64,000 nucleotides of DNA from Salisaeta longa DSM 21114 (GTDB taxonomy: Bacteria; Bacteroidota; Rhodothermia; Rhodothermales; Salinibacteraceae), in contig NZ_ATTH01000001.1 of the NCBI RefSeq assembly GCF_000419585.1, positions 890,005 to 954,004 of the forward strand, in the 5' to 3' direction. A program made the translations under genes and the position numbers. The number at the start of each line of letters is the position of its first letter. Position 1 is the stretch's first letter. Below, in pieces: positions 28,573 through 48,352 of this stretch. Under the pieces are notes generated by a model. That model was not told the DNA's origin and did no database searches. It saw only the letters and a program-made list of their open reading frames with translations.

Positions 28573-28759
28573 AGCAGCAACTGGTTGATGAGAGCAAACG
28601 ACGGGCCTCTCATATTACCTGACGGCGGATGCGTTCTGTAAGCGGTACGTAAACCGCAACCGGCCGCCCCAGGATGTGGGCCGCGGGTGGGCGCCGCGCC
28701 GTCTTGTCACGGCGATGGACATAGGGTAGCGCTCAGGCACAGGGACGACGCGCCAAGGA

Positions 28760-29268
28760 CAATCCTCTTGGAATGGAGGCAAGACTTCCGACTTTGATGT
28801 GGAGCTTGAAAAAGCTTCTGCTGCCGAAGGTTGAGTTTCAATCCTCTTGGAATGGAGGCAAGACTTCCGACGAGGCCGTCGCGAAAGAACGGCGGAGCGC
28901 GCGCCAGTTCGGCCGTTTCAATCCTCTTGGAATGGAGGCAAGACTTCCGACTTGCGGATGTTGACAGGGGTTGGGTGACTCATAAGGATTAAGGTTTCAA
29001 TCCTCTTGGAATGGAGGCAAGACTTCCGACCACCCAGACCGGACAAATGATCGCAGGGAGTACACAACAGTTTCAATCCTCTTGGAATGGAGGCAAGACT
29101 TCCGACTCGACCGCGAGGACAAGCGGTCGAGGTATCTCAGCAGAGTCGGTCGGTTTCAATCCTCTTGGAATGGAGGCAAGACTTCCGACTAAATAGTTCT
29201 TCTTTCTTTCCTTGTTTTTTTTGTTATGATTGTTTCAATCCTCTTGGAATGGAGGCAAGACTTCCGAC
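28760..29268 (-). CRISPR. CRISPR array 1 (7 repeats, 6 spacers)
   Basis: A 37-bp repeat (plus strand: starts GTTTCAATCC, ends ACTTCCGAC) occurs at 28835, 28915, 28994, 29070, 29153 and 29232, with a seventh at 28760-28792 that lacks its first four bases. Spacers are 39-46 bp: 28793-28834, 28872-28914, 28952-28993, 29031-29069, 29107-29152, 29190-29231. Read on the minus strand the repeat ends ATTGAAAC, the usual crRNA 5' handle, and the leader is on the right (29269 on). The truncated repeat is therefore the oldest, trailer-end one. The newest spacer (29190-29231) is a very T-rich plus strand, unlike the others. Confidence 0.98.
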
Positions 29269-29800
29269 GGTACCTGAAAGAGAGGTGAATACCGGTGCGA
29301 AAGGCAGCGGTTGCGGCCGCTGCAGGCCGTTGGTCGTAGCACGGAGGCGTCATTTCCGCAGACCCTGTGCTAACATGCGCTTGCTTCATGGCTTTTAGTG
29401 AAGCCATCGTGAAGGCATTTTGCGCAACCCTATGTAAAAGAACACCTTGCGCGTGTGCCGCAGACCCCCCGCCTTGAGCGGACATTTTAGGTCTGCAACG
29501 CACGTTGAATTCAATGGCATAGCACTGATTTCAACGACACGCAAAAGCATGGTATATAAGCGGCTGGAGAATGTCAAGCGCCGCGGCCCGCTTTTTCTGT
29601 GCGGTGGGCTGACGGGCGCAGAGGGTTGCCCGGCTGCGGAGATTGCCCGGCTGGGGAGATTGCGCTTTCAAGCATGACCCAAGGGCCCCCACGTCGCCTT
29701 CGGCTCCTCGCAATGACAACAGTGGTTGATGTCAAAAACAAGGCGTCGATGGTTCAGATGGTTGTTCAGGGTGGTCTGCCCATCTGCACGCGCAACGCAC
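29269..29800 (-). promoter_or_regulatory. Leader of CRISPR array 1
   Basis: From GGTACCTGAAAGAGAGGTG onwards this 532-bp stretch is almost identical to the sequences following arrays 2 and 3. It has no gene. It carries the putative promoter 29549-29577. Its outer part overlaps a dispersed repeat family. Confidence 0.85.
29549..29577 (-). promoter_or_regulatory. Putative pre-crRNA promoter, array 1
   Basis: On the minus strand TTGACA (29572-29577), 17 bp, then TACCAT (29549-29554). It is positionally conserved in all three leaders, about 280 bp before the first repeat. Confidence 0.5.
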
Positions 29801-30065
29801 CAAAGCAGCAACCCCCTCCTTGTCATCGCGAGGAACGACCAGAGGGAGTGACGTGGCGATCTCCGTGTACAGGCAGAAACGCTTTGTTGCGGAGATTGCA
29901 CCTACGGCGTGACCTAACGGCCCCCACGCTCACCGCGTTCGCTCGCAATGAAAACAGCGGTTGATGAAAAACGGAGCGTTGATGGTTCAAATGGCCGTTC
30001 GGACCGGTTCGGCCATCTGCACGCGCAACGCATCAGAGGAACAAAAAGCAATGTGTCATCGCGGG
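29640..30065. repeat. Dispersed repeat, copy 1
   Basis: Carries blocks such as GCGGAGATTGC, CTCACCGCGTTCGCTCGCAA, GGAGCGTTGATGGTTC and TGTCATCGCGAGGAACGACC. The same blocks recur at 48190-48600, 51290-51475 and 60290-60735. It resembles widespread Bacteroidetes non-coding repeats of the TCATTGCGAGGA type. No gene is seen from 29269 to 30254. Confidence 0.65.
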
Positions 30066-30254
30066 GTCTGCGAAAAGCCGCCCCCCTAGTTGGCACCGTT
30101 CGCCGAATTCAGGACAGCCCCCTTGAATTCGAGGGGGCCCATCTTCTGCCAGCCGCTTGCGTGTGGGGGCCTCAGGCACGAAAACATCACCCAAGACGCG
30201 CCGTAGTATTTTCCGTATTGCATTCATCTTCACGCGCACTTCCCCGTTGCATGC

Positions 30255-31331
30255 ATGCCTACCGATGCTCCTCGCCCATCCACCGACAACTCCGTGCCAG
30301 CAGACGAGCCCTCCGTCTCCGGCACGTCCGCAACAGCCTCCAGCGACGTGCGACCGATTCGATGGATTGAGAACGAAGGTCTGCTCCGCGACGAGGGCGT
30401 GTTGCTTGGGCTCGCCGGCATGAGCGAAGAGCTGGCGCACAAAATTGACGTCATCCGGTCGTACTTTGCGCAGCACGAAGAAGCCGTGCGCCGGGGGCAT
30501 GCCCAGCTTGAAGCCCGCCATGCGCGGATTGAGGAGCAGATAGCCGACGTCACCGAACAGCTTGCCACGCTCGACCGCCAGATCGAGGCGCCGTCCATTC
30601 CCGCTGTAGACTGCCCCGACGGGGTGGGGCGTCATACCTTGTTGCGTTACGTGGTGGGAGCCGTGCTCACGCTCGCGCTGTGCGGCGCAACCCTCGTCTT
30701 TGTGCACACGCTGCTGGCTCCCTTATTTGCCAGGGCCTGGTGGGTAACCGCAAGCGTAGGCGGGGTAGGCTTCTTTGTAGCTTTTCAGCCCACCTCGTGG
30801 ATGTACACCAACCGTGCCGCGCATCAGGCCCCATCGGATGCCCCCGAGCCCTGGAAGACCCAATTGGCAACGTTTGGGTTGCCCGTAGCAGCAGCGTTGT
30901 TCGTGAGCGTATGGACGTACGAACCCCTTGGCGCGCTAAAGAGCATCAGCGTGTTTGTATTTCTTGCCTTCGCATTCCTGTTTGGCGGACAGCTGCTCCT
31001 CAGCCTGTTGCCGCGGCTGTCGCTGCTCCGCCGGGTGCTGTGGCACGACGTGCGCGTGTGGTGGGCGCGCCGGCAGGCCCGCAAGCGCCGCCGCCAGCTC
31101 CGCGAGCAAACGCTCGGCCCGTTGCAGGATCAGGACGCCTGGCTGCAGGAGGAAAAGGCCCGGCTGCGCACCCCCGCAACGGTAGCCGCAGAGCGCGACG
31201 CATGCATCGCCACCCTCCGCAGCGAATACGCCCTAGCGCGCCAGGCCATCGAGGCCGGCATCCTCAGCGCGCGCACCGCCGATCAGATCCTACGCACCAG
31301 CCCCAACCCCACAAATGCGAGAATGGATTAG
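30255..31331 (+). CDS. Coiled-coil four-helix membrane protein, subunit A of three-gene cassette
   Basis: 358 residues, no family recognised. Layout: disordered Ser/Asp/Pro start (1-35), coiled coil at about 60-115 (HEEAVRRGHAQLEARHARIE), then four TM segments (LLRYVVGAVLTLALCGATLV; WWVTASVGGVGFFVAF; TFGLPVAAALFVSVWTY; ISVFVFLAFAFLFGGQLLL), then a highly basic helical tail (RRQARKRRRQLREQ). Termini are probably cytoplasmic. The next gene overlaps its stop by 17 bp and has the same layout, so the two probably form a heteromer. It lies in front of the cas operon and in the same direction, 450 bp beyond the leader of array 1. Confidence 0.72.
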   Translation: MPTDAPRPSTDNSVPADEPSVSGTSATASSDVRPIRWIENEGLLRDEGVLLGLAGMSEELAHKIDVIRSYFAQHEEAVRRGHAQLEARHARIEEQIADVTEQLATLDRQIEAPSIPAVDCPDGVGRHTLLRYVVGAVLTLALCGATLVFVHTLLAPLFARAWWVTASVGGVGFFVAFQPTSWMYTNRAAHQAPSDAPEPWKTQLATFGLPVAAALFVSVWTYEPLGALKSISVFVFLAFAFLFGGQLLLSLLPRLSLLRRVLWHDVRVWWARRQARKRRRQLREQTLGPLQDQDAWLQEEKARLRTPATVAAERDACIATLRSEYALARQAIEAGILSARTADQILRTSPNPTNARMD

Positions 31332-32940
31332 GAACCAGTGGAACGACTGGGTTGGCCGCAACGCCCCCGCCGATGCCTCGCCGGAGGCCGCCGACAAGGA
31401 GACGCCGGCGCCCGCAGCAGGCGATGATTCGGGGCCGGCCACTGCCGAAGACCCTGCGCCGCTTACGCACCGGTCGCGACGCGCCCCCAACGAGTTGCTC
31501 GGTTACACCTACACGCTACGTACAAAGGACGAGCCGAACCCCGAGCGGCCTTTTGCACACGGCTTTGTGGACGGACTGGAGCAGGTGGAGCGCGCGCCGT
31601 TTGAGCGGCTGGTGACCCTCTCGGAGGAAGAGCAGCGGTTGACCGGAGCGCTCAACGCACTGCGCGAGCGACGCGCCACGCTAGAGACCTACCGCGACAC
31701 GCACCGGTCGAAGCGCGAGGCCATTGCCCGTGCCACCGACGAGCTGGCGTACGTAACCGACGACCTGGAAGCCGCCGAGGCCCGCGCCGCCGCGCTGCAA
31801 GAAAAGGTGGAGGCCACCGCGCCGCACGACCCCGCGCCCGAAGCGCGCGAACACGCGCCCCGGCGGGGGTCCATCGCGTATGCGCTGCTGTATAGCATCG
31901 CCGGACTCGTCTTTATCGCGGGCGACGTAATCATGTCGCGGGAGGTTGTGTCGCGGGCGCTGCGCCTACAGGGCGAGGTAGAGCCGTGGATCTTTGCCGT
32001 GGGCTTGGCGATGCTGGCGGTGCTCATGAAGCCCGCCTACGACCGGCTCGTGGAAAAGCCCTACTGGGAGGGGCGAACGACCGTCTTCCGCCGTGTCATT
32101 GTGGGCGGCGCGTTGGCGGCGGCGGTAACGCTCGGCGTGCTTGGCGGCTTCCGCGCCTTTGCGTTCGAAACCAACCAGACGATTCGCCGCTTGCAAAGCG
32201 AGCAGCAGAGTGTCGTACAGCAGGGCAACGTGGAGGCTGCAACAGCCATTGGCCAACAGGTGTCGCAGTTGCAGGAGAGCATTGCCGGTAGCTGGTGGGG
32301 CTTTCTGTCGTTTGTGCTTTCGGGCGTACTCTTTGCCGCCGCTGGGGCCGTGTGTTTGGGCATTGGCCTACATCACGGGCGCGACTGGTACCACCGATCG
32401 TTGCGTCCTTTGTGGATGCAACGTAAGCAGAAAAAGGCCCATCGGCAGCATCAGGAAAAGCTCCAGACGGCAAAGGCCGCACGCGACGCCCTGAAAGACA
32501 AGATGCGGCATCTCACAACCGAGATCACCGGCGCCCAAGCCGCCCTAGAGGCCCTTCCCCCGCTCGACGAAGTGCAGGCGTCCTTAAAAGACCTGCGGCG
32601 CGAGGCCGAGCGCCTGCGCGCCGCCCGCGCCCTTGCACGCAGCAATGCCGGCATCGACGCCTATCGCAACGGGTATGCCCTGGCAAACGGCATGTTTGAG
32701 ACATCGAGCCCCGACGACACCGCCACAGAGCATGTAACGTCGAGCCGCATCGCGGGCGACGGCAGCGCCACCGATCCGCCGCTCGCGCCCAACGATCCGG
32801 CGGCCCCGGAACCTGCGGACGGCGATGATGACGATGCAGCCGCAGACAACAAACCCGCGGCCATGGACCAGAACCGCACCACAAACAAGCGACGCCCCTT
32901 CCTGGCGCTGCGCGATGCCATCGCCAACCACCGCCCATAG
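31315..32940 (+). CDS. Coiled-coil four-helix membrane protein, subunit B
   Basis: 541 residues, overlapping the previous gene by 17 bp. Layout: disordered A/P/D-rich start, long coiled coil at about 95-165 (ERRATLETYRDTHRSKREAI), then four TM segments (IAYALLYSIAGLVFIAGDVI; PWIFAVGLAMLAVLMKPAYD; RRVIVGGALAAAVTLGVLGG; GFLSFVLSGVLFAAAGAVCL). A periplasmic helical loop lies between TM3 and TM4 (QTIRRLQSEQQSVVQQGNVE), followed by a second coiled coil and an acidic tail. The same order as subunit A, but with longer coils, suggests partner proteins of one membrane complex. Function is unknown. Confidence 0.72.
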   Translation: MREWIRNQWNDWVGRNAPADASPEAADKETPAPAAGDDSGPATAEDPAPLTHRSRRAPNELLGYTYTLRTKDEPNPERPFAHGFVDGLEQVERAPFERLVTLSEEEQRLTGALNALRERRATLETYRDTHRSKREAIARATDELAYVTDDLEAAEARAAALQEKVEATAPHDPAPEAREHAPRRGSIAYALLYSIAGLVFIAGDVIMSREVVSRALRLQGEVEPWIFAVGLAMLAVLMKPAYDRLVEKPYWEGRTTVFRRVIVGGALAAAVTLGVLGGFRAFAFETNQTIRRLQSEQQSVVQQGNVEAATAIGQQVSQLQESIAGSWWGFLSFVLSGVLFAAAGAVCLGIGLHHGRDWYHRSLRPLWMQRKQKKAHRQHQEKLQTAKAARDALKDKMRHLTTEITGAQAALEALPPLDEVQASLKDLRREAERLRAARALARSNAGIDAYRNGYALANGMFETSSPDDTATEHVTSSRIAGDGSATDPPLAPNDPAAPEPADGDDDDAAADNKPAAMDQNRTTNKRRPFLALRDAIANHRP

Positions 32941-32989
32941 GGTCGTCCGGTTCTCCCGTTTTACTCCGTACGTTCTCTTTCCCCAAGCG

Positions 32990-33799
32990 ATGACCATGCC
33001 TCGTTTTTTGTCTCGCATGCGCACGCTCATCTGTCTTGCCGCCATGCTTTTCGTTGCGGGGGCCTGCAACGGCACCCCCGATCCAGAGCACATCGACGTG
33101 TCTACCCCCGGCGTTCAGCAGGTGCTGGTGTTTGTGGACGCAAGCGCAAGCGCCGGTAACGTCTCCACATTGCCCAGCGTTTATCGCGACTCGCTTCGGG
33201 CCGTGATCAAAAAGCGGCTTACCGAGCCCCGCGACCGCATCAGCATCTTTCCTGTGCACGCCAAGACGACCAGCAAGGTGGGGCGGTGGGACATGCGCAA
33301 CACCGTACGTCGCCCGAAGTGGTCTTCCTTTGCGCAAGACCGGCGGTCGCGCAAGCTGATGTACGAAAGCAAGGTGCAGTCTTTTCTCAAACGCGCCCAG
33401 GAGCAGGCCGTCCGGCACGCCCGTGCCCTATACACCGACCGCAATTTTGAGCAATGGACCGACCTGTGGGGAACGCTGCAGGTTATCAGCGAAGAAGCGC
33501 AGCCCAAGAAGGGCCCCGTACGCGTGTACTACTTCAGCGATATGTTTGAGAGCGTACCCGGCGCCAAGCGTCGCAACTTTGAGCGTGTGCCGCCCACAAA
33601 CAAAGCGCAAGCCCAGCGGTGGGCCGCGCGCGACGCGGAGCGCATCAAGCAGCAATTGTCGCTGCAGCCCTCGGTGCTTCGGAACGTGAAGGTGCGCGTC
33701 CTGCCCGGCCCGCTGGCTGCCAAAGACCACGCCCTGGCCGTCAAGATGTACTGGATGCGTCTGTTTGAGGCGCTGGGCATGCAGGCCACCTACAACTGA
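32990..33799 (+). CDS. VWA-like lipoprotein, subunit C
   Basis: 269 residues from MTMPRFLSRM. The lipobox is LFVAGAC, so it is lipid-anchored and periplasmic or outer-membrane. A VWA-like fold is suggested by QQVLVFVDASASAGNVS (DxSxS MIDAS start), then DSLRAVIKKRLTEPRDRISI, then the later strand VRVYYFSDMFES, which would supply the third metal-binding acid. The last part is basic and helical. It starts 50 bp after subunit B. The set (two coiled-coil membrane proteins and a VWA lipoprotein) suggests an envelope-spanning complex. No known system was matched. Confidence 0.7.
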   Translation: MTMPRFLSRMRTLICLAAMLFVAGACNGTPDPEHIDVSTPGVQQVLVFVDASASAGNVSTLPSVYRDSLRAVIKKRLTEPRDRISIFPVHAKTTSKVGRWDMRNTVRRPKWSSFAQDRRSRKLMYESKVQSFLKRAQEQAVRHARALYTDRNFEQWTDLWGTLQVISEEAQPKKGPVRVYYFSDMFESVPGAKRRNFERVPPTNKAQAQRWAARDAERIKQQLSLQPSVLRNVKVRVLPGPLAAKDHALAVKMYWMRLFEALGMQATYN

Positions 33800-33844
33800 C
33801 GAGCGCGCACGCACGCCGCAGCAATGGTCATGGGCATTTTTTTC

Positions 33845-33873
33845 TTGACACTCCAGATGCTACGGCATAAATT
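33845..33873 (+). promoter_or_regulatory. Putative promoter of the type III-D operon
   Basis: TTGACA (33845-33850), 17 bp, then TAAATT (33868-33873), giving a 5' leader of about 110 nt before cas10. The same TTGACA-17-TAxxxT form appears in the three array leaders. It lies just after the VWA gene, so the membrane cassette and the cas operon are probably separate transcripts. Confidence 0.55.
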
Positions 33874-33991
33874 AATTACCGGTTTTATTGCCAAATAGCC
33901 TTTTGTACGTGTTTCCGTAGCCTCACAGGGTTAAAGCACGTGGAAGTAGTCTTTCCTATCTCGTTACCGCTTCCCCTATCCTGCTCCAATT

Positions 33992-35629
33992 ATGGACGAG
34001 CAATTTTCGCATCTTGTACAAGTCGAAATTGGTGGTGTACAATCATACATCTTCAATGGAAGCCGGCTCCGAGAGTGGCGGGGGGCCAGTGCACTGCTCG
34101 ACAAGGCAGAGCGCGTCGACATTTCGACAACCATAGCGGATCTGTCTGACCAAGCAACGATTTTGCGTCAGGGGGGCGGTGTTGTGGTGATCGGTGTGCA
34201 TCCTGGCGGCGATCCGTCTCGGGTACAACAAGCCATCACGGATGCTTATCGCCGCGCAGCACCTGGCGCCGATGTGTATGGTGCGCAGATACCGCTGTCC
34301 GGCACCACCGCCAAAGAAGTGCAAGCAGCACTTTCGAAACTGGCGTTTGCGGTGGAGCGCAATCGCGGGGTAAGCCTGGCACCTGATATGCACGGTGCCC
34401 TTCTCGGTCCTATGGAGCGTCCATGCGATAGCTGTGGAGAACGGCCGGCTGCTGTGGCTACTGAAATTGCAGACGATGGGCGTTTGGTTTGTACCATCTG
34501 CGACCACAAAGGGCGGTACGGGGGCAACGTGCGCCGGGGAGACGCATCGGCGAGCGTTCTAGAGCGCTTCCAACGGTATTTGGAGACGCAAGACGAAGAC
34601 GCAGCCGCAGGTTTCCGGGTACAGCCTAAGCACATAGCCTCGAACCTGCCTGATGACTTAAACGCCATCGCGGAAACCGGAGATGCGCTTGCTCTCATTC
34701 AAGCAGATGGAAACAGCCTTGGCAAAACCGTACAGTCCCTTACATCTCTTGCGCAGTATGAAGCATTGGCCGACCGCATTGCACGCGCTGTAGAGGAATC
34801 CGTGTTCGAGACGCTTGCCCAGCACGGCCCTCAGCCCAGAGCAAACGGAAAAGCCGTGCTTCCGTGGGAGATTCTATTCCTTGGCGGCGATGACATCCTG
34901 ATTGCAACCGCCGATACCATTGCTGTCGACGTTATCTCGTCGCTTATACAAAGCATTGAGACACGAACACGCGAGGTTTTTGCAGCCCCGCCCTTGGATG
35001 CGCTCGACCGGTCGTTTTTGTCGGTGGGTGCCGGGCTCGTTGTTGCCGACGCCCACGTTCCCATTGCTACCCTGCGGACGCTGGCCCACGACCTGGAACG
35101 TGAAGCGAAAAAACGAACGTACAGGCGTCAGAACGAAAGCAAAGCCGATGCTGAAATCAGCACAGTTGACTTTCACCGAATCACAGGTTCGGGAAGTGCC
35201 TCCATCAACAAAATTAGGACGCAGGCCCTTACGCCGCAGCGCGCCGCAACATACGAGGCGGTGCAATTGACGAAACGGCCGTTTACTTTGGAAGAGTTAC
35301 GAGACGTTGTAGCAGTTGCAAATGCGTGGAAGTCTGCAGGCCTGCCAAACAACAAGCTGCACGCGCTCCGGCAAAGCGTATTCGAGAGCCCATCCGAGGC
35401 GATGCGTACCTGGACCCACACCGTCGGCCGCAGTTCAAGCCAACATGCTGAGGCTTGGATGGACTTCCATCGCTTATTGGAGTCCGCTGATGACGCTACT
35501 AGCATACGGCCTCCGTTTGTGATCACGGCGACGGACGGCGCTTCAGAAAACAGCGCAAATGGCGATAAGAAGTGCTTGGAGGCTGCTACGCCTTTGTTGG
35601 ATGTGCTTGACATCCACGCGCTTCTCTAG
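33992..35629 (+). CDS. cas10: Cas10, HD-less, type III-D
   Basis: 545 residues. The protein opens directly in the first Palm domain (HLVQVEIGGVQSYIFNGSRL), with no HD nuclease domain. A treble-clef zinc site follows (CDSCGE at 145-148, CTIC at 167-170). The second Palm/cyclase domain has the metal loop ALIQADGNSLGKTVQ (D at about 239) and GGDD at 298-301 (FLGGDDILIA). It should therefore make cyclic oligoadenylate when target RNA is bound, but not cut ssDNA. It ends with a helical D4-like domain. It is first in an operon of eleven genes. HD loss is known among III-D and some III-B Cas10 proteins. Confidence 0.92.
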   Translation: MDEQFSHLVQVEIGGVQSYIFNGSRLREWRGASALLDKAERVDISTTIADLSDQATILRQGGGVVVIGVHPGGDPSRVQQAITDAYRRAAPGADVYGAQIPLSGTTAKEVQAALSKLAFAVERNRGVSLAPDMHGALLGPMERPCDSCGERPAAVATEIADDGRLVCTICDHKGRYGGNVRRGDASASVLERFQRYLETQDEDAAAGFRVQPKHIASNLPDDLNAIAETGDALALIQADGNSLGKTVQSLTSLAQYEALADRIARAVEESVFETLAQHGPQPRANGKAVLPWEILFLGGDDILIATADTIAVDVISSLIQSIETRTREVFAAPPLDALDRSFLSVGAGLVVADAHVPIATLRTLAHDLEREAKKRTYRRQNESKADAEISTVDFHRITGSGSASINKIRTQALTPQRAATYEAVQLTKRPFTLEELRDVVAVANAWKSAGLPNNKLHALRQSVFESPSEAMRTWTHTVGRSSSQHAEAWMDFHRLLESADDATSIRPPFVITATDGASENSANGDKKCLEAATPLLDVLDIHALL

Positions 35630-35669
35630 TCCTCAGACGCCCAGTGCCCCCATACCTTTCGCCTAACCG

Positions 35670-36500
35670 ATGCCTATGTCTGATCTCCATCACGTTTCGA
35701 TAGGGCTGACGCTCGCCTTTGACGGTGCCACGCACCTTGGCACCGGACGGGCCGAGGGATTGCTCAACCGCACCGTGTCACGCAGCGCCAACGGGCAACC
35801 TTATGTCCCGGGATCGGCGCTCAAGGGCGCACTTCGCATGACTGCTGAACGCATCACCCAACAGTTAAACCACTGCTTGCATGCACCGGGGCTTTCGCCG
35901 TCGGAGCGCTTGGGCTATCAGCGGCGCGGGGACGCTATCCTCGATACGCCTTGCCGCGGGCCACGCCCTGAAGAGATGTGCCAGAGCGAGACGCCTTGCA
36001 TTGTGTGTCGCCTGTTTGGAAATGTGTTTACGGGCAGCCGTCTCCATGTCGATGACGCGTATCCCGTCTCCACCGCTTTCCAAAAGAGCCTTCAGAAATT
36101 ACGTGAGCGCCAGAATGATGGCGCCTCTGCGGGACGGTCCAGGTTTGGTACGGTCGACGTCATCACGCGGCTTTCCGTTGACCGGCGCCGCAAGGGTGCA
36201 AAGTCTGGTGCGCTATTCACCAGCGAATACAGCCGGCCCGAAATGCCTTTCGAAACCCGCATCGAAGGTTCCATTCCCCTGCATCCCCTTGGGGAAGATG
36301 GGGCGCCCGCTGAGCTGGTGCTGCTCGCCGCCACGTTGGCTGCCACTGATCAGGTTGGTGGTGAAGCGAGCACCGGGCATGGCCGCTGTACAATTAAAAC
36401 TGAAACGATCAAGGTCGACGGTACAGCACCGTCTTACGGTGTCGATGCCCTGTTAGCCAAGGAAGCGCTCGAACAGCTCGCCTGGTCGCGTCTCATATAG
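35670..36500 (+). CDS. Csm3/Csx7-like RAMP protein (Cas7)
   Basis: 276 residues. The RAMP core is YVPGSALKGALRMTAE, CIVCRLFGN (zinc CxxC), TVDVITRLSVDRRRKGAKSG with ALFTSEYS, and the Gly-rich end GGEASTGHGRCTIKTE. It is a backbone subunit that binds crRNA. The Asp that in Csm3 cuts target RNA every 6 nt lies about 12 residues before PY(I/V)PGS. Here that place reads LLNRTVSRS with Asn, so this copy is probably not a slicer. I chose ATG 35670; a second ATG is two codons on (MSDLHHV). Confidence 0.87.
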   Translation: MPMSDLHHVSIGLTLAFDGATHLGTGRAEGLLNRTVSRSANGQPYVPGSALKGALRMTAERITQQLNHCLHAPGLSPSERLGYQRRGDAILDTPCRGPRPEEMCQSETPCIVCRLFGNVFTGSRLHVDDAYPVSTAFQKSLQKLRERQNDGASAGRSRFGTVDVITRLSVDRRRKGAKSGALFTSEYSRPEMPFETRIEGSIPLHPLGEDGAPAELVLLAATLAATDQVGGEASTGHGRCTIKTETIKVDGTAPSYGVDALLAKEALEQLAWSRLI

Positions 36501-36554
36501 TCCGTTCGTCTGGGAGCGCCTGCTCATCTTATTTCTCTCTCGGTTCTCTGGAGT

Positions 36555-37826
36555 ATGAAAACGTATTGCCTTCGCCTCACCTTAACGTCGCCCCTAACGG
36601 TAAGCAGCAGCCGAGACAACTCGAATCGCTATGAAACGGAACGCTCGGTGCCGCCGGCCACCCTTCGCGGGGCACTTGCCGCTGTGATGAAACAGCATGA
36701 GACAGACGCAACGACGATGAACGCACTGTTTGGAGAGACCGGGTGCAGAACGAGTGCGCTCTGCCCCATCGCTCCCCACGCGCCTACGGAAGCATCCGTC
36801 GTGCCTGTGCCGCTCACCGTGCGGAGTTGCAAGTTCAAACCCGGCTTCCGCGCCGATGGCCAACATGGCGTTGAGGACGTGTTGGTGGCGGCGCTGCACT
36901 TTGCACTGCATGACGATGGCGGGGGGCTGTCGGATGCCCGTCAGTGCCGGCATCCGGAATGCACCCATGTGCTGAAAGCTATGAGCAACTTCACCCGGTA
37001 CAATCCGGAGGCAAACACCTGGCACAAGCAAGGAGCAAGCGACACCCGAATGCAAGCACATGTGGGCCTCGACCGGCGGCGGCGCGGCGCAGCGTCGGGC
37101 ATCCTCTATGCACGTGAGGTGCTGAGTGAGCAGACGACTACAAACCATGGCGATTCGCCCGCGCTGCATCCTACGACCATGCAAGCCCACGTGGCGATCC
37201 CCGAGGCCCACGCAACGACCCTTAGCGATGCCTTAACACCCGGAACGATCCTTCGCATTGGCGGCGATCGCTCCCGTGGGCTTGGGCGCTGCACGGTTGA
37301 ACACTTCGACACGGTATCCGCCCGTATGCCAGCCATCAGGGATCGTATTGAGGACTTCAATGCCGCCTGGAAGGCATCATTTGAGGGAACCAACCACCAG
37401 CCGAAAGACGGGGTGCTTGTCGTGCTAACACTCGAAACCCCCGCGCTCTTCGTTGACGCCATGCTCCGCCCCAATCTTGCGCCTGACGGCGCGGACCTGC
37501 TGCAAGCGGCTCAACCCAGCGCATCGGAAGCGGCTGAAGCCTTGGAAGCGCTGGCACCGGTCCATCAAATCGCGCGCCCCGTGTCGGTCCACGGATGGAA
37601 TGGCCTCGCCCGCTTCCCCCATGCTAGCGCACAGGGTTTGCAAGCCGGAAGCGTTCTCGTTTTCCGTGCGCACAATATCGACGAGCCCCTTCTCCGTGCA
37701 CTGGAGCATATCGAGACGCATGGCATCGGCTTGCAACGACACCTAGGGTACGGACGCACCCGCGTGTGCCTGCCGCTCCACACCGACGTTCATGAGCACA
37801 CCGCGCGTTCCGCTACGGCTCGTTAA
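36555..37826 (+). CDS. csx10: Csx10 RAMP protein, hallmark of subtype III-D
   Basis: 423 residues. Two RAMP folds: the first has LTLTSPLTVSSSRDNSNRYE, VPPATLRGALAAVM, then a zinc-like Cys/His region, then TILRIGGDRSRGLGRCTVEH, the Gly-rich loop typical of Csx10. The second has VLVVLTLETPALFVDAML and the end HGIGLQRHLGYGRTRVCLPL. Csx10 caps the III-D complex and takes the place of Csm4/Cmr3 holding the crRNA 5' handle. Together with Csx19 below it defines the subtype. The start 36555 fits the family. Confidence 0.85.
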   Translation: MKTYCLRLTLTSPLTVSSSRDNSNRYETERSVPPATLRGALAAVMKQHETDATTMNALFGETGCRTSALCPIAPHAPTEASVVPVPLTVRSCKFKPGFRADGQHGVEDVLVAALHFALHDDGGGLSDARQCRHPECTHVLKAMSNFTRYNPEANTWHKQGASDTRMQAHVGLDRRRRGAASGILYAREVLSEQTTTNHGDSPALHPTTMQAHVAIPEAHATTLSDALTPGTILRIGGDRSRGLGRCTVEHFDTVSARMPAIRDRIEDFNAAWKASFEGTNHQPKDGVLVVLTLETPALFVDAMLRPNLAPDGADLLQAAQPSASEAAEALEALAPVHQIARPVSVHGWNGLARFPHASAQGLQAGSVLVFRAHNIDEPLLRALEHIETHGIGLQRHLGYGRTRVCLPLHTDVHEHTARSATAR

Positions 37827-37869
37827 CATCTGGTCATACGCATTCTTTCAACGCCAACTTCCTCTTGCC

Positions 37870-38424
37870 ATGCCCGATTCCAAACAGCCCACCTACCGCG
37901 ATGCGCGCCAATATCTGCGGCGCCTCATTGACGAACAAATCGCAACGCGCAGTGATGCGATGTACATGTCTAAGCATTACAACGTGGCTGAACTCGGTGA
38001 AAGTGCCGCACAGATCTTTGACAAAACCCAGATGAATGGCCTGGAGCGTTTGGCGCTTAGCGCTTCTACGTTCAGTGAGATTGCGAACTTCATCAAGTCG
38101 CAATGCGGGCGCACAACGAGTATTGGAGACGACTGGCGTGAACCGCTGCCTCGGTTTGGCGAATCGTTTGGCCCCTTCCTTTACAAAAGGCTCAGTGAAA
38201 AGGTCATCAGCACGGTAGACTCAAATACCAACGATGTGATTGATGCCCTAAAAAAGGGGAAATTGCTCAAGCCACTATTCCATCCAGATGAAAAGAAAAA
38301 GGATGGCATAAAGCGCCTCGAAGAGGAAATCAGCCGCCAACTGCGTGTCGGCTACACCCGCGCGTACATCAGCCATGTGGTGGCCCACTATAATTACGCC
38401 AAGAGCTTCGAGATGTCGAAGTAA
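37870..38424 (+). CDS. Helical protein of type III-D operon, unknown
   Basis: 184 residues from MPDSKQPTY, 43 bp after the csx10 stop (a frame from 37792 would overlap csx10 and start poorly). It is wholly helical: ARQYLRRLIDEQIATRSDAM, LERLALSASTFSEIANFIKS, IKRLEEEISRQLRV, ending YISHVVAHYNYAKSFE. No match is known to me. The position and alpha content suggest a small (Cas11-like) subunit or an accessory part of the effector complex. The final HYNYAK region is similar in feel to Csm2/Cmr5 ends, but this is not proof. Confidence 0.55.
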   Translation: MPDSKQPTYRDARQYLRRLIDEQIATRSDAMYMSKHYNVAELGESAAQIFDKTQMNGLERLALSASTFSEIANFIKSQCGRTTSIGDDWREPLPRFGESFGPFLYKRLSEKVISTVDSNTNDVIDALKKGKLLKPLFHPDEKKKDGIKRLEEEISRQLRVGYTRAYISHVVAHYNYAKSFEMSK

Positions 38425-38462
38425 CGTGCACGCGTTATTCTCCCCTCAACCGCATACGCCTC

Positions 38463-38888
38463 ATGCCCAGTCCAACTGCTTTACAGGCATCACCCGACGC
38501 AACGCTAGACAGCTGGCTCACGCGCACCGACTGGACGCTGCATAAAGAAGCGTCTGATGCAGTAGAAACCGTCGAAGCGCTCCGAGAAGGCGTGCCGGTT
38601 GTCAGCAGGTCGCAGCTTCAAGCCATAAAGAATACCGCAAGTCTCTGCGGTAATCCGAAAACGTTCCGGCGCTTCCTAAAAAAACGCAAGCAACGCCGCG
38701 CTCGAGACGACAAAAAGAAAAAGGCGGCTTTCTGGGGTGGACTTATGAAGCAAATAAAAGAAGCCGAAAAACATGCGAAAGCGGCAGAGTCAGAGGTAGG
38801 GACACTCTCGGCATCAGATAAAATGCGCGTTGTGGCTTCGTACGTTGATCATCTCGTAGCGCACTGCCAGCTTCGATCGAAAAATTAA
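38463..38888 (+). CDS. Small basic helical protein, candidate Cas11-type subunit
   Basis: 141 residues, 38 bp after the previous gene. Helical throughout, with a strongly basic centre (TFRRFLKKRKQRRARDDKKK) and a final helix MRVVASYVDHLVAHCQLRS. The length and charge fit the small subunit of type III complexes (Csm2, Cmr5), which bind along the crRNA-target duplex. No family signature is certain. With the 37870 gene there are two candidates for the small subunit and only one need be it. Confidence 0.55.
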   Translation: MPSPTALQASPDATLDSWLTRTDWTLHKEASDAVETVEALREGVPVVSRSQLQAIKNTASLCGNPKTFRRFLKKRKQRRARDDKKKKAAFWGGLMKQIKEAEKHAKAAESEVGTLSASDKMRVVASYVDHLVAHCQLRSKN

Positions 38889-38926
38889 GTCACTGCTTCA
38901 ATCCGTCACTTAAACACCAACCACTT

Positions 38927-39787
38927 ATGTCTGACACACCTCGTCACGAATGGACGCTTCAGATGTCACGTCGCATTCGCATCACTGGACGGTTGCGCAT
39001 GACCAGCGCGCTGCATGTTGGCGGTGGCGTGGGCACTACATCGATAACCGACGCCGGTGTGGTGCGTCATGCCGACGGCCGCCCATACATTCCCGGAAGT
39101 AGCCTCAAGGGCGCGCTCCGAAGCCACCTAGAACGTTTGTGCCAGGTTGAAGCGCTTGCCAAAGCAGGAGCCAACAGCTGCTTGCTCTATGCCCCTGGTA
39201 AGAAGGGCCCTTCATGGACCCCCACTGCACCGGCATGCCCCACACCTGGGTGGATTGAAAACAAGAAGGACGCTACCGCTGCAAAGGAAGAGGATTTCTC
39301 GTCGCTCTGCGCCACCTGCACGTTGTTTGGCAGCCCCATCTTGGCTGGCAAGATACGTATTGGCGACTTGGAGGTAGTGGAGGAGACCTACAACGGGGAC
39401 GTGGAAATACGGGATGGCGTAGGTATCAACCGCGATACGGGGCGCGCTGTAGATGGCGTGAAGTTTGACTACGAGGTCATCCCATCGGGGACGGCCTTCG
39501 CGTTTACGCTTGATGTGGATAGCCCCGATGCTGTTGAGCGTGGACTGGTAGCTGTGGCCATTCGGGAATTGCAAGAGGGCCGGATATCCATTGGCGGCAA
39601 AACGACGCGTGGGCTCGGCCATTGCGAGCTGTCGAACATAGCCGTTCAGGATGACGATTTCAGTTCAATTGAAAAAATGGCTAACTATTTCAATTCTAGA
39701 GCTGACAACGGAACGTCTGACAGGAAGGTTGACGATCCAAACGACACCATCAATCAATGGATTGTTGCCCTACTGCCTTCGTCTTAA
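38927..39787 (+). CDS. Csx7/Csm3-like RAMP protein, probable slicer
   Basis: 286 residues. ALHVGGGVGTTSITDAGVVR is followed by PYIPGSSLKGALRSHLERL, CATCTLFGSP, the Csx7 stretch RDGVGINRDTGRAVDGVKFD and the glycine loop GGKTTRGLGHCEL. The Asp in ITDAGVVR sits where Csm3 has its catalytic Asp (D-x-x-V-x-R before PYIPGS), so this copy should cut target RNA. It follows the candidate small subunit after 38 bp. Confidence 0.88.
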   Translation: MSDTPRHEWTLQMSRRIRITGRLRMTSALHVGGGVGTTSITDAGVVRHADGRPYIPGSSLKGALRSHLERLCQVEALAKAGANSCLLYAPGKKGPSWTPTAPACPTPGWIENKKDATAAKEEDFSSLCATCTLFGSPILAGKIRIGDLEVVEETYNGDVEIRDGVGINRDTGRAVDGVKFDYEVIPSGTAFAFTLDVDSPDAVERGLVAVAIRELQEGRISIGGKTTRGLGHCELSNIAVQDDDFSSIEKMANYFNSRADNGTSDRKVDDPNDTINQWIVALLPSS

Positions 39788-39832
39788 TGCCTTCTCATAC
39801 TCACGTTCTCTCATTCAAGAACAACTGAATCT

Positions 39833-40756
39833 ATGCTCAAAAAACTAGTCAACCAATGCACGTTTGATCTCAAGATCACGACAGAGGAGCCGATCCTTGT
39901 GAAAAGCGGTGATGCCGTGGTCAGCGGACCCGACATGACGTTTGTGCGCACCCGCCGCAAGGGCCAACCCGAGCCGTTTCTTCCTGGCAGCAGCCTAAAA
40001 GGTACGCTGCGAAGCCATGCCGAGCGCATTGCCCGCACCCTGAAAGATAAAAGCGTGTGTGGCGTCTTCCAAAAGGCAAATGTGGAAGGGTGCAGCTGGG
40101 CGCTTGATGATACCAAAACCCCTTCCGACTACGCTGGGTCGTGCCCGGCCTGTCGCCTTTTTGGAAGTTTGCGGTGGAAAGGACGCTTCCGGATTGGAGA
40201 TGCCTACCTCATCGAGAGTGACCGCAACGTGAAACCCGAATTACGGGACGGTATCGCTATCGACCGTGTAAGCGGCGGCGTAGCGGGTACAGCGAAGTTT
40301 GACCTGGAGGTCATGCCGGCAGATGTGACGTTTGAAACGCGACTTGAGATTATAAACTTCGAGACATGGCAACTGGGCTGGATGGCCTACCTCATGCGTG
40401 ACCTTATGGAGGCGAACCTGCGCGTTGGGACGGGCACGTCGCGCGGCTTGGGGCGCATCCGTGGAGCGCTTGACGCCGTTACGCTCGACTACATTGGAGC
40501 CCCTGACGGCATTGACACGCACATCCTGGGCCTTGGCGCACTGACGACAAACGAAGATCGCCAAGCGTACGGCCTGGTTCAAAACGACCGTGTTGAGAGT
40601 CCAGCGTTTCTGTCGCCACAGCGCTCGGCCGGGTCGCTGCGGGCACGCGCTCGCATGACAGATGAGGAAGAGCAAATGGCTTTTCTGGCTGCTGTAGCCC
40701 CGGCCTTTAACGACTACCTAGCGGCTATACCCTCCGTCCCCGAGCGGCGCTCGTAG
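39833..40756 (+). CDS. Csx7-like RAMP protein, probable slicer
   Basis: 307 residues. ILVKSGDAVVSGPDMTFVRT, FLPGSSLKGTLRSHAERI, CPACRLFGSLRWKGRFRIGD, LRDGIAIDRVSGGVAGTAKF and GTGTSRGLGRIRG are in Csx7 order. The Asp in GPDMTFVRT aligns with the Csm3 catalytic Asp. The tail (DRVESPAFLSPQRSAGSLRA) is extra and specific. It is the second of the two copies that keep the Asp. Confidence 0.88.
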   Translation: MLKKLVNQCTFDLKITTEEPILVKSGDAVVSGPDMTFVRTRRKGQPEPFLPGSSLKGTLRSHAERIARTLKDKSVCGVFQKANVEGCSWALDDTKTPSDYAGSCPACRLFGSLRWKGRFRIGDAYLIESDRNVKPELRDGIAIDRVSGGVAGTAKFDLEVMPADVTFETRLEIINFETWQLGWMAYLMRDLMEANLRVGTGTSRGLGRIRGALDAVTLDYIGAPDGIDTHILGLGALTTNEDRQAYGLVQNDRVESPAFLSPQRSAGSLRARARMTDEEEQMAFLAAVAPAFNDYLAAIPSVPERRS

Positions 40757-40803
40757 GGCTTCGGTCCATGTTCTGATATTCCTTAACTCTCACGGTTCTA
40801 CTT

Positions 40804-41361
40804 ATGACTCTTCGCAGTTGGACGCGGCCCGCCGATGAGCCGTTGCTTCTTGACTCCACCCCGGAAGATGCTTTTTTCTTAGCTGCATCGCCTGATACTG
40901 TCGTGTTTTGTCGTATCGGCGACGGACCCGGTTCTAAGTTTCCGTGGACGCGCATCGATGCGTTTACTGAGGATTGGAACTTGCGCGTGCGCCGGATGGG
41001 GGGGCAGGTACGCGCTGTAGCCGCAGGAGCCGTACCGGGCCTTGAAGACTGGGGACCTCCGCACTCAGAAGAATCGCTGGATGATGCACAGTCCTCCGAT
41101 GCCCGCGCCATCCTGTGGGGGCGCCAAAACGAGGGCGAGACCCTATGGCTTGAACTGCGTGTCCCGCATCTCATGACCCCCAGCAATCATTTGCATCCCC
41201 AAGGACACGATGCGGCGCACCGAAATCGCATGATCCGTCGGTATCTCACCATCGTTCGCTACGAACGAAACGGACGCCCCTGCTTCCAACGATACACCGG
41301 TGTCGCATATGCCGAGACCGATGCTGAAGACAAGACGTTTGCCCCCCTAGCGGGTTCGTAG
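40804..41361 (+). CDS. csx19: Csx19-like type III-D protein
   Basis: 185 residues. The stretches FCRIGDGPGSKFPW with WNLRVRRMGGQVRAV, then ARAILWGRQNEGETLWLELR and RYLTIVRYERNGRPCFQRYTG follow the order of the Csx19/TIGR03984 family (elements for an 'Elr-R' strand, the LWG, and a repeated reading of Y-E-N). Csx19 occurs only with III-D systems next to Csx10 and RAMP genes, as here. Role in the complex is not fixed. Assignment is by motif and context. Confidence 0.65.
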   Translation: MTLRSWTRPADEPLLLDSTPEDAFFLAASPDTVVFCRIGDGPGSKFPWTRIDAFTEDWNLRVRRMGGQVRAVAAGAVPGLEDWGPPHSEESLDDAQSSDARAILWGRQNEGETLWLELRVPHLMTPSNHLHPQGHDAAHRNRMIRRYLTIVRYERNGRPCFQRYTGVAYAETDAEDKTFAPLAGS

Positions 41362-41409
41362 CGCTACTTTGCGCCCCCTCACTGCCTGTCCCCCTGACGC
41401 CTGTCTGTT

Positions 41410-42441
41410 ATGCCTACTATCGAACCTTTTGACTTCGTGCCGTATCCCAGCGGCAATGCCATTGACTACACCAAAGCAACCGGACATGACCATTTCCAGG
41501 GATGCTCTGGCCGGCTGGAATGCGAACTGGAGGCCCTGAGCCCATTTTTGGTGATGGATAGCGAACTCCGAGACGGTTCGAGTCAGAACTCCGCAGTGCA
41601 GTTTAAAAAAAACCGAAGCGGTACGTATGTGGTACCCGGCACTTCCCTGAAAGGCTTGGTCCGGAGCGTGTTTGAAGTGCTCTATCCGTCGTGCACGCGC
41701 ATCAGCGGAGGAAAAACGAAGGTTCCTTCCGCGTTTCGCCCATGCCGGTCGCACCACAAGGTATGTCCTGCGTGTCGTGTGTTTGGCTTCCTGAATGGCG
41801 GCACCGTGCTAAAGGGAAAGGTCAACATCGGAACAGCGCATGCCGTGGGCACGCCCGAACTAGGAACAGACCGGCAGCTTATCGGACTGTTCAGACCACA
41901 TCCGGAGGAGGCAAAATACAACAGGAACGGACATGCCAAAGGATACAAGTTTTACTTTCATCAGCAAGAGGTCAAAACAGCAAATCAGGACAATGACAAA
42001 AAGTTTGGGACATGGATCACACCGCTGAAGCCCGGCACCTGCTTTACCTTCTCGGTTACCTTCGAAAACCTGACGGACCGGGAACTCAATGCACTCGTAG
42101 CTGCGCTTGTGTTAACGGACCGTGCCACCGATCCGGAAACCGGTGATACGGTTGCTGTACGACACAAATTGGGCTACGGTAAGCCGGCAGGGCTCGGCTC
42201 CGTAGCGATTCGTCTCACCGATGTCGAGCTGCAATCGAACGCCCGCAAGGCGTACACCTCGTTCGATCGTTCCCCTCGGGTCCTACAGGAAGGCTCAAGC
42301 GAGCTCAAGAAATGGATTGCAAAACGGCAGCAGTTGGTTTTTGGGGATCCCAGCCGAGCCGTACAGCACCTCACACGCATTCTGCGGTACCCGCCCCGCG
42401 AAGATGTGACGTATGCGTATGACAAGGGAGCATTTGGGTGA
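41410..42441 (+). CDS. RAMP protein of TIGR03986-like type
   Basis: 343 residues. PFDFVPYPSGNAIDY then the RAMP core CELEALSPFLVMDSELRDGS, YVVPGTSLKGLVRSVFEVLY, CPACRVFGF and GYGKPAGLGSVAIRL. The opening FVPYP and SLKGLVRSVFE fit the TIGR03986 family of III-D associated RAMPs. The catalytic Asp position before the PGTSLKG motif is not an Asp (QNSAVQFKKN), so no slicing is expected. It is last of the complex genes; the CARF genes follow after 99 bp. Confidence 0.8.
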   Translation: MPTIEPFDFVPYPSGNAIDYTKATGHDHFQGCSGRLECELEALSPFLVMDSELRDGSSQNSAVQFKKNRSGTYVVPGTSLKGLVRSVFEVLYPSCTRISGGKTKVPSAFRPCRSHHKVCPACRVFGFLNGGTVLKGKVNIGTAHAVGTPELGTDRQLIGLFRPHPEEAKYNRNGHAKGYKFYFHQQEVKTANQDNDKKFGTWITPLKPGTCFTFSVTFENLTDRELNALVAALVLTDRATDPETGDTVAVRHKLGYGKPAGLGSVAIRLTDVELQSNARKAYTSFDRSPRVLQEGSSELKKWIAKRQQLVFGDPSRAVQHLTRILRYPPREDVTYAYDKGAFG

Positions 42442-42540
42442 GCCTTGTTGGAAAGCTGTCGTGACGCACATCTGCGAAAAAGCCCTCAGCGAACGCCCAG
42501 CAGCTCTTCCCTGTAATTTTTCATCTTAGTCTTTCATTTT

Positions 42541-43749
42541 ATGTCCCAGTCAATCGGCCTCGCGTTTCTTGGAACAGGTGACTACAAAGTGGCACACTAT
42601 CAGTGGCACGATGCACCGCCTATCAAGACGCGGTATGTACAAATCGCTGTTCAGAAGACCTTTGATCTTGATGGATTTGCCGTTGCCATGACGGAGAGCG
42701 CCCGCGCGGCACACGGCGATTCGCTTGCGTCGTGTATGGCAGAGCAGGGCGTTGCCTTGCAGGACCTTACGATTCCTGCGGGCAATAACGAAGACGAGTG
42801 GTGGGCCATGTTCGAGACCATTGTTGACGCCATTCCATCCGATGCGCGCCTAACCATCGACGTTACCCACGGCTTCCGGTCGCAACCGCTCATCGCACTC
42901 GCGATTGCCGTCTACTTGGAAGCAGCCACCCATGTTACGGTTGAGCGCATTGTGTATGGCTCCTTCCGCGGCGCCCACAAAGACGCCCCCATTCTCGATC
43001 TTACGCCGTTCCTCGACCTGATTGAGTGGAGCGTGGCGGCCCGGCAGTTTCTCCGTGACGGAAGTGCTGCGCAACTGGCCCGCCTGTTGAAAGAGGCGCA
43101 GGCGCAAGCCCATAAAACCGATGCCGACGTGAAGCCTGAGCACGCGCAACGTACCGGCAACCAATTGGACGGCCTAACGTCTGCGTTTGCTGTTGTGCGT
43201 CCTGCCGAGATTGCCCAGGAGCGGGCTTCCGCGTTGCACGCAGCGCTTGAAGACTTGCAGGATGATGTGGCACGCATTAAGGCGCTGCGTCCGCTGTCGT
43301 TTCTTCTTACGCGGATCCAGGAGCGCGTTGCGCCCATGCAGGCCGCCTCGCTCTACACCCGTGAAGGGTTCATGGCCCAGCGCGAGATGATGGATTTCTT
43401 CTTGCAAACCCAGCAGTTGCAACAGGCTGTTACGTTGGCCCGTGAAGCGCTTATCTCGCACCAGGCCCTACAGATGGGGCTTAGCCCTGAGCCCGTGCCG
43501 CAAGAGGCATGGGACGGCTGCGGTCGAGACCGCGCCACCGACTATCTTGGAGCCCTGGCAGATCAGCACACGGGGCGATCCGCGGAAGAAAAATCCCTTG
43601 GGGATTTGTGGACCCGCCTCACCGGCATTCGCAACGACATCAACCATGCGGGCATGAATGCACAACCCAAAAAGGCCATGACGCTCGCCCGCAATGCCAA
43701 GGCCGTTGTTGAGGATGTGCAAACGTACCTCCAGAACCACCCCGCTTAA
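42541..43749 (+). CDS. CARF-HEPN ribonuclease 1 (Csx2/TIGR02221-like, DxTHG)
   Basis: 402 residues. The Rossmann-like CARF domain has AFLGTGDY at the start and LTIDVTHGFRSQPLIALAIA at 105-124 with the DxTHG motif (D107-G111), used to bind cyclic oligoadenylate. After a long helical linker (about 180-330) the C-terminal HEPN domain has RNDINH (R364, H369), the RxxxxH catalytic signature of RNase HEPN. When Cas10 makes the cOA signal, it should dimerise and cleave RNA non-specifically. It is followed by a second, related gene. Confidence 0.9.
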   Translation: MSQSIGLAFLGTGDYKVAHYQWHDAPPIKTRYVQIAVQKTFDLDGFAVAMTESARAAHGDSLASCMAEQGVALQDLTIPAGNNEDEWWAMFETIVDAIPSDARLTIDVTHGFRSQPLIALAIAVYLEAATHVTVERIVYGSFRGAHKDAPILDLTPFLDLIEWSVAARQFLRDGSAAQLARLLKEAQAQAHKTDADVKPEHAQRTGNQLDGLTSAFAVVRPAEIAQERASALHAALEDLQDDVARIKALRPLSFLLTRIQERVAPMQAASLYTREGFMAQREMMDFFLQTQQLQQAVTLAREALISHQALQMGLSPEPVPQEAWDGCGRDRATDYLGALADQHTGRSAEEKSLGDLWTRLTGIRNDINHAGMNAQPKKAMTLARNAKAVVEDVQTYLQNHPA

Positions 43750-43790
43750 GCACGTTTACATCGTTCCGCTCACTTCGCTTTCCCACAGGT

Positions 43791-45095
43791 ATGGCAACAG
43801 AACAACTCCTTTTGCTATTGGGCAAGGGCCCCGCTGATGTTGCAACCGTCCAAACCGGCGGTTACCGGCAAGCGACGTATTTTCGGTCCGAGTACCCCGG
43901 CGAGAATGTTCAAACACCTTTTGTGGGGGAAGCACTGGCGAGCCTCTATCCGGATCGCTTTGACACCATTCACATCCTGGGCACCCCCGACGCCATGTGG
44001 GACGTGCTCCTCCAACACTACGACGGAACTCTGGAGGACGAACAGCTAATCGAGCAGCTGCTCGCACTGGAAGACCAGCAGCCCACAGCCTTGCCTTCTC
44101 CGCTGCGAGACCGCATCCAGCACGCTGTGGGCGTGGCGTTCGATACGCGCATCGAAACGCACCTCATACCCATCGGCACTTCACCTGCAGCCTACTGGGA
44201 CATCCTGGAGCGGCTGACGGCGCTCAACATTACAGGCGGAGCGGTGTCCATCGACATCACGCACTCCCTGCGATCGCATCCGTTGTTTTTACTGCTGGCG
44301 CTGGTATACCTCCGCTCGCTCCATTCGAGCCTGGAGCTTGGATCGGTCTTTTACGGAGCACTTGCGCTTACCAACAAATACTTTGATGGGAAAACTCCCA
44401 TCTTCGACCTTCGGCCCATGGTGAAACTCCTGGACTGGACAGAAGCGGCCACGGCTTTCGAACGGTACGGCGACGCGGCTCCTATCGCACGCCTCATTCA
44501 GTCGGGCGATGCCTTCGAGGATCTGGCCAAACGGGCCACATTTGTCTCTCAGGTCCTACAGCTCAATACCCTTTCGAGAGTGCAAACCAACACGCACAAG
44601 CTCATTGGATTGCTCGATGCTGTAGAGGACGAGGCCTCGCCGCTGTTAGCAATGATTCGTCCCAAACTGCGCGCGCTCCCGCAAGCCCTTCAGGGCGTAC
44701 CGCGCTGGCAGGCCATGCTTACCGTTGCCCGGCAACACTGGACATCGTACCGGGCCGGATCGGCTGTGTTGGCGCTCTGGGAGGCTATTATCGACCGACT
44801 CGCCCTGGCATACGACCTGCTGGACGCAGATCCAACAAAGACGTACCGGGCCCTCCGGCCCATTGCCTGCGGCCAAGGCACCACCCGTTGGTTTCAGCAG
44901 CAAGGACTCGGGCGTTTTCCCAAACGTGCCGAACAGCTCCGCGAATATCGCAACGGCATTGCCCATCCACGCGAGCAAGACTATGAGCCGCCGGAGGTGT
45001 ATGATCACTTTCCGGGGCTGCTGTCATACTTTGAGGAGCACCTTGGCAGCGTCGTGCTGGATCGGTTGCCCGACGATAAGCCGGTGTCGTTGTAG
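43791..45095 (+). CDS. CARF-HEPN ribonuclease 2 (Csx2-like, DxTHS)
   Basis: 434 residues, 42 bp after the first effector. CARF: LLLLLGKG at the start and AVSIDITHSLRSHPLFLLLA at 151-170 with DITHS, a variant of DxTHG (Ser for Gly). C-terminal HEPN: RNGIAH (R387, H392), again RxxxxH. The two effectors share the layout but are far apart in sequence, and the CARF of the second has an insertion before the motif (residues 70-150). It is the last gene of the operon and converges with the zinc-binding gene 70 bp away. Confidence 0.88.
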   Translation: MATEQLLLLLGKGPADVATVQTGGYRQATYFRSEYPGENVQTPFVGEALASLYPDRFDTIHILGTPDAMWDVLLQHYDGTLEDEQLIEQLLALEDQQPTALPSPLRDRIQHAVGVAFDTRIETHLIPIGTSPAAYWDILERLTALNITGGAVSIDITHSLRSHPLFLLLALVYLRSLHSSLELGSVFYGALALTNKYFDGKTPIFDLRPMVKLLDWTEAATAFERYGDAAPIARLIQSGDAFEDLAKRATFVSQVLQLNTLSRVQTNTHKLIGLLDAVEDEASPLLAMIRPKLRALPQALQGVPRWQAMLTVARQHWTSYRAGSAVLALWEAIIDRLALAYDLLDADPTKTYRALRPIACGQGTTRWFQQQGLGRFPKRAEQLREYRNGIAHPREQDYEPPEVYDHFPGLLSYFEEHLGSVVLDRLPDDKPVSL

Positions 45096-47841: not shown

Positions 47842-48352
47842 GGTACCTGAAGGAGAGGTGAATACCGGTGCGAAAGACAGCTGTTGCGGCCGCTGCAAGC
47901 CGTTGGTCGTAGCTCGGAGGCGTCATTTCTGCAGACCCTTTTCTAGCATGCGCTTGCTTCATGGCTTTTGGTGAAGCCATCATGAAGGCATTTTGCGCAA
48001 TCCTATGTAAAAGAACACGTTACGCGTGTGCTGCAGCCCCCCACCTTGAGCGGACATTTTAGGTCTGCAATGCGCGCTGAATGCAATGGCTGTGCACTGA
48101 ATTCAATATCACACGAGAGTAGGGTATGTAAGCGGCTGGAGAATGTCAAGCGCCACGGCTCGCTTTTTTGTGCGCGGTGGGCTGACGGGCGCAGAGGGTT
48201 GCCCGGCTGCGGAGATTGCGCTTTCAGCATGACCTAAAGGCCCCCACGCTCACTGCGTTCGCTCGCAATGACAATAGTGGTTGATGAAAAACAGAGCGTT
48301 GATGGTTCAGATGGTTGTTCGGGGTGGTGTGATCAAACTGCACGCGCAACGC
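47842..48352 (-). promoter_or_regulatory. Leader of CRISPR array 2
   Basis: About 510 bp almost identical to the leaders of arrays 1 and 3, without a gene. Minus-strand promoter-like TTGACA (48144-48149), 17 bp, TACCCT (48121-48126). Confidence 0.82.

Follow-up and report, generated by a model that had tools for sequence, protein, structure and literature searches.

Three adjacent genes between a CRISPR array and cas10 in Salisaeta longa, here called A, B and C, probably encode an envelope complex whose main job is independent of CRISPR and whose adjacency to type III loci is secondary. The trio was analysed within a window of 64,000 nt, the whole stretch of DNA to which the coordinates of its features refer. 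It is named by no database that we searched, and we identify it as an uncharacterised three-protein envelope module that is near-universal in one other Bacteroidota family. Lying next to cas10 says little, by itself, about a part in CRISPR.

Gene A (30255–31331, + strand) and gene B (31315–32940, + strand) encode membrane proteins of 358 and 541 amino acids, respectively, and the ends of their open reading frames have 17 nt in common. The initial annotation had described two overlapping membrane genes with the same plan, and the overlap, hydropathy and coiled coils bear this out: in both proteins an N-terminal coiled coil is followed by a core of four transmembrane (TM) segments and by a coiled coil or a basic tail at the C terminus. 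Protein A comprises an N-terminal motif (WIENEGLLRDEGVLLGLA), a coiled coil, the TM segments and a basic coiled-coil tail with an ‘RSE’ motif. Protein B comprises an H-G-x-x-D-G motif, a coiled coil (residues 93–167), four TM segments (about 190–348), a second coiled coil (361–463) and a C-terminal RRPFLALRD motif. Four TM segments are seen by hydropathy in B and in the A proteins of homologous trios; in the window’s A, three exceed the hydropathy cut-off and the second is weaker. Hydropathy and charges, in particular a strongly basic stretch after TM4, predict an N-in/C-in topology for A and B, either terminus being cytoplasmic. The AlphaFold model computed for B from a two-row alignment is confident solely in the two coiled coils, around 93–167 and 361–463; Foldseek searches with this model returned coiled coils only, with no E value below 0.001, and a PDB sequence search with B gave coiled-coil matches only. 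Profile comparison between A and B reached 93% probability over 86 columns spanning the coiled coil and TM1–2, which is insufficient to call them paralogues.

Gene C (32990–33799, + strand) encodes a VWA-domain lipoprotein. Its likely start is either the ATG at 32990, giving a protein of 269 amino acids and a spacing of 49 nt from B, or position 33017, which encodes the residue at which homologues start and gives a spacing of 76 nt. A signal peptide is present, a hydrophobic stretch precedes the lipobox Cys26 as expected of a bacterial lipoprotein, and this cysteine is invariant in seven aligned homologues. The metal-ion-dependent adhesion site (MIDAS) is intact (D50-x-S52-x-S54, T157 and D184), and all 7 of the aligned homologues retain its ligand positions. 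An AlphaFold model of moderate confidence predicts an alpha/beta VWA fold, and its best Foldseek matches in the PDB are VWA domains, with E values down to 8e-5; a PDB sequence search with C returned nothing significant. The cysteine, the motif and the modelled fold all agree with the earlier description of C as a lipoprotein with a DxSxS-type VWA start.

In the arrangement that we propose, A and B would be inner-membrane proteins whose four TM helices are flanked by coiled-coil arms reaching into the cytoplasm. Conserved motifs lie at the arm ends, W-x-x-x-x-x-LRDEG and SE in A and HGxxxG and RPxxxxR in B, and these may bind a cytosolic partner. C would be lipid-anchored on the periplasmic side, joining A and B via their periplasmic loops and probably gripping a partner through its MIDAS. 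Read in this way from sequence, the complex would most likely bridge the periplasm and the cytosolic partner, in the role of a stress sensor or of a tether in the envelope.

Several lines of evidence suggest that the main work of this module lies outside CRISPR. First, when 394 genomes from the phylum were searched, the model of C and that of the B core matched an identical set of 8, barring one weak B match in G297 (46 aa, E 0.007) that we treated as chance. Three of the 8, with genomes of 6–7 Mb, belong to the other Bacteroidota family, designated f47. Across 101 f47 genomes, B is present in 88, C in 87, both in 86 and neither in 12, almost always as a single copy each (Fisher p about 1e-12, kinship ignored), and the two are absent together in one small-genome genus. 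In the three f47 genomes that we read, A adjoins B and C occupies a separate locus, and the genes around them at the sites read are of housekeeping type (purA, aspS, glycosyltransferases); A also adjoins B in G454, G489, G490 and G414. The A–B pair and separate C of f47 are homologous to the window’s three genes, carry the same motifs and co-occur, differing from them in that C is unlinked from A–B and no CRISPR lies nearby. In six f47 genomes (G443, G431, G482, G502, G493 and G456; L082–L086, L089), no gene A turned up in the 1.5 kb adjoining B; the B proteins of G431 and G482 have a shortened N terminus.

Second, cas10 is present in 17 f47 genomes, 16 of which have B or C, and it shows no association with the trio (p 0.68). 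In these 16 trio-bearing genomes cas10 was never found near the trio, the minimum distance on the same contig being about 370 kb, with the proviso that some of the assemblies are fragmented and a contig end could hide a link in individual cases. The co-occurrence of B and C, their joint absence and their independence from cas10 together argue that B and C act jointly and chiefly outside CRISPR. The envelope complex suggested by the initial annotation is well supported, by two membrane proteins of the same plan, a VWA lipoprotein and the co-occurrence of B and C at unlinked loci.

Third, in the class Rhodothermia, to which the window belongs, the trio also occurs away from CRISPR loci. C is present in 8 of 245 genomes of the class, in one as a distant variant, and A adjoins B in all five complete trios. 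Homologues in other genera share about 25–33% identity with motifs intact, and the copies of A, B and C in Rhodothermus, with dN/dS of 0.09–0.31, are under purifying selection; from both observations we conclude that the trio genes are real. In one Rhodothermus genome (G016), the trio adjoins genes for a DtxR-type regulator and metal transporters, with a III-A core elsewhere in the genome. In BA12 (G020), the sole match in our scan of genome contigs, it is flanked by purB and a peptidase gene, and our searches detected no cas10 in the genome. In the window’s nearest relatives, G513 and G517 of the same family, B–C stands at a non-CRISPR site among PYP-like, response-regulator and large coiled-coil genes; in G513 no gene A was seen adjoining B, and the contig of G517 ends within B. 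A congener of G517 (G085) has the PYP-like/coiled-coil neighbourhood without B–C. The window genome likewise keeps the neighbourhood of ArsA, coiled-coil and PYP-like genes at another site, where the trio is missing, so the CRISPR-side position of its trio looks derived, not simply ancestral, a point that weighs against the envelope-complex reading. An attempt to locate the ancestral site of the window’s trio via the ddl gene was abandoned, as the flanking genes are not conserved. In the B and C trees, Rhodothermia fall on one side of a branch, with long branches that leave the window’s position unsure. One further genome of the window’s family (G112; L126, 9025–11314, − strand) encodes a diverged pair of a 4-TM coiled-coil protein and a VWA-like lipoprotein.

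The initial annotation had said that its reading would be refuted by a trio found mostly at non-defence sites as a known cell-envelope housekeeping set. The first half of this largely came true, with non-CRISPR sites in f47, G016, BA12, G513 and G517, and the second did not, as no database searched names the trio. The same distribution bears on whether A–B–C could be a separate defence or conflict system, independent of CRISPR and housed in the same island. The patchiness in Rhodothermia, the occurrence on a plasmid (see below) and the diverged pair in G112 would suit such a system, whereas the single-copy near-universality in f47 is at odds with the patchiness of defence systems and PADLOC gave no convincing match; we consider this explanation very improbable.

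In the window, array 1 (28752–29268, − strand, 37-nt repeats) has a degenerate repeat at its left end (28752) and a right flank common to all three arrays (repeat family D3); its leader is therefore probably at the right side, with the array predicted to be transcribed away from the trio. The leader and a dispersed intergenic repeat fill the interval between the array and gene A (29270–30254; families D3–D12). Copies of this dispersed repeat (core GCATGACC...CGCAATGACAACAGTGGTTGATG) lie at 29672–30066, 48172–48551, 51280–51503 and 60284–60713, adjoining each CRISPR array leader, with one additional copy at 60 kb. Far from any array, at 62379–62438, most of the CRISPR repeat (AATCCTCTTGGAATGGAGGCAAGACTTCCGAC) occurs once on its own. 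On the other side, a gap of 192 nt (33800–33991, + strand) separates C from cas10 and holds a sigma-70-like site at 33845 (TTGACA-17-TAAATT), which is weak, since the region has three such sites where 1.1 would be expected; with such a site ahead of cas10, the trio need not belong to the cas operon. The description of a trio between array 1 and cas10 in the operon direction thus stood for position and for co-directionality with cas10, with the correction that transcription of the array probably runs away from the trio.

The type III-D-like block that follows (33992–45095, + strand) contains cas10, RAMP genes, csx10 and two CARF-HEPN genes. The cas10 gene at 33992 was confirmed by HMM, and the protein has GGDD and no HD. 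Directly after the two CARF-HEPN genes, an ORF on the − strand (45594–46463) resembles a fusion of a class III nucleotide cyclase with an FHA domain. Both GC and GC3 of the block lie below those of the trio: GC3 is 0.76–0.78 in the trio, 0.70–0.79 in nearby host genes and 0.58–0.68 in the III-D genes, and it changes sharply at 33799–33992, from 0.78 in gene C to 0.58 in cas10. This suggests that the III-D block is of different origin from the trio, which, with its host-like GC3, is unlikely to be part of a III-D import. R. marinus shows no such contrast in composition.

The only strong hint of recruitment comes from Rhodothermus. By tblastn, C was matched on two Rhodothermus marinus plasmids, where the order is CRISPR array, DUF4236 gene, A–B–C and then csx2, with operon spacings of 18, 7 and 3 nt up to csx2; this ancillary operon (csx2, csm6, csx2) adjoins the csm operon of a type III-A system. 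In a sister species (G003) the identical gene order is found on the chromosome, and a third Rhodothermus (G014) has the operon without the trio, with DUF4236 directly beside csx2. In G003 a TnpB-like transposon gene interrupts the csx2 that follows the trio (L014, 4826–7279), and in G014 csm6 appears as two tblastn pieces (L092, 7367–8073) and may be rearranged or truncated. Here the trio appears to have become a member of that operon, perhaps by recruitment. With regard to co-transcription with type III genes, Rhodothermus has the 3-nt gap to csx2, and the window has the 192 nt and promoter-like site before cas10. Given the III-D type and the other neighbours in the window, the two CRISPR-side placements are separate events. 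In Rhodothermia the gene set would move between sites as a unit, and on two occasions it would have ended up next to type III CRISPR. The expected recurrence at type III loci is seen in Rhodothermus (III-A). Of about 6 independent placements in the class, 2 are on the CRISPR side and the four others are not; among the 16 trio-bearing f47 genomes with cas10, some of them fragmented assemblies, no such placement was found.

These observations raise the alternative that in Rhodothermia the trio serves type III CRISPR as an ancillary module, acting at the membrane as an effector or protector and working with the CARF proteins once Cas10 has produced cyclic oligoadenylate; it may for example alter the membrane of the infected cell. 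Two independent placements at different subtypes, the tight R. marinus spacing, the clean presence or absence of the trio between DUF4236 and csx2, and the retained GGDD and two CARF-HEPN genes of the window all speak for it. So does the chance of at least two CRISPR-side placements among six, about 0.001–0.03, a post hoc figure that assumes CRISPR-side sites to be 1–5% of the genome. Three further points count against the envelope-complex reading: the Rhodothermus trio forms one operon with csx2, its synonymous divergence is similar to that of csm6 in this operon, and within the class cas10 occurs in 4 of 5 trio genomes versus 19 of 112 others (p 0.005, kinship ignored), three of the four being from one genus. 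Against an ancillary module, searches of Pfam, NCBIfam and PADLOC found no known cyclic-nucleotide sensor domain (CARF, SAVED or similar) in A, B or C, the trio is near-universal in f47 without CRISPR linkage, and the remaining Rhodothermia placements are away from CRISPR. We judge this alternative unlikely, and the adjacency stops short of making the trio an ancillary effector of type III CRISPR. A combined scenario, in which a widespread envelope machine was recruited twice by Rhodothermales type III systems as a cyclic-oligoadenylate membrane arm that works via its CARF neighbours instead of its own sensor domain, seems to us distinctly unlikely.

The envelope-complex explanation also has a stricter form, contained within it, in which the trio merely hitch-hikes: there would be no functional tie to CRISPR anywhere, and trio and CRISPR would both accumulate in insertion-prone regions. 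The composition break between C and cas10, the separate promoter-like site and the dispersed repeats around the array leaders favour this form, yet CRISPR-side placement happened twice and the Rhodothermus trio sits exactly within the csx2 operon. We regard it as a serious possibility that falls short of an even chance. We prefer the broader envelope-complex explanation. The pair of R. marinus with the trio in its csx2 operon and G014 without it offers a handle on whether a type III system can recruit an existing envelope machine.

No family in Pfam, NCBIfam, PADLOC or PHROGs matched A, B or C above cut-off, and, in line with the initial annotation’s finding of no known defence system, no PADLOC family covers the three. 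Matches to ASRP and LmuB were coiled-coil noise or sub-threshold, and single-member matches to Rv2743c (0.002) and a Pycsar cyclase (5e-4) were rejected. Searches of phages and viral contigs found no relative, and a literature search, which did not extend to survey supplements, found nothing on the trio. The FLSHclust survey describes vWA-related systems with transmembrane, kinase, phosphatase and tubulin genes near CRISPR, as well as vWA-MoxR-VMAP systems (PMC10910872). The former resemble the trio in combining a VWA protein with transmembrane partners near CRISPR; the latter, ternary conflict systems, are recognised by an adjacent MoxR ATPase and VMAP, and neither gene occurs within the trio or, by annotation, in the operon that contains it in R. 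marinus. The type III membrane effectors Cam1–3, Csx23 and CorA (surveyed in PMC11229360; see also PMC11014256 and PMC10808066) are, like A and B, membrane proteins encoded beside type III loci. In Cam1, Cam2 and Csx23, however, a nucleotide-binding domain, or one predicted to be so, is fused to the TM part, and our searches of A, B and C showed no such domain; the trio further differs in comprising three proteins and in that most of its carriers lack CRISPR linkage. Finally, C has in common with VWA/MIDAS proteins (the structural matches being Rpn10, TFIIH p34, CMG2 and the VWA of CLCA1) the predicted alpha/beta fold, the D-x-S-x-S after strand 1 and the T and D metal ligands, and it stands apart from known VWA families, none of which it matches in sequence above cut-off, as a short single-domain lipoprotein partnered by two 4-TM coiled-coil proteins.
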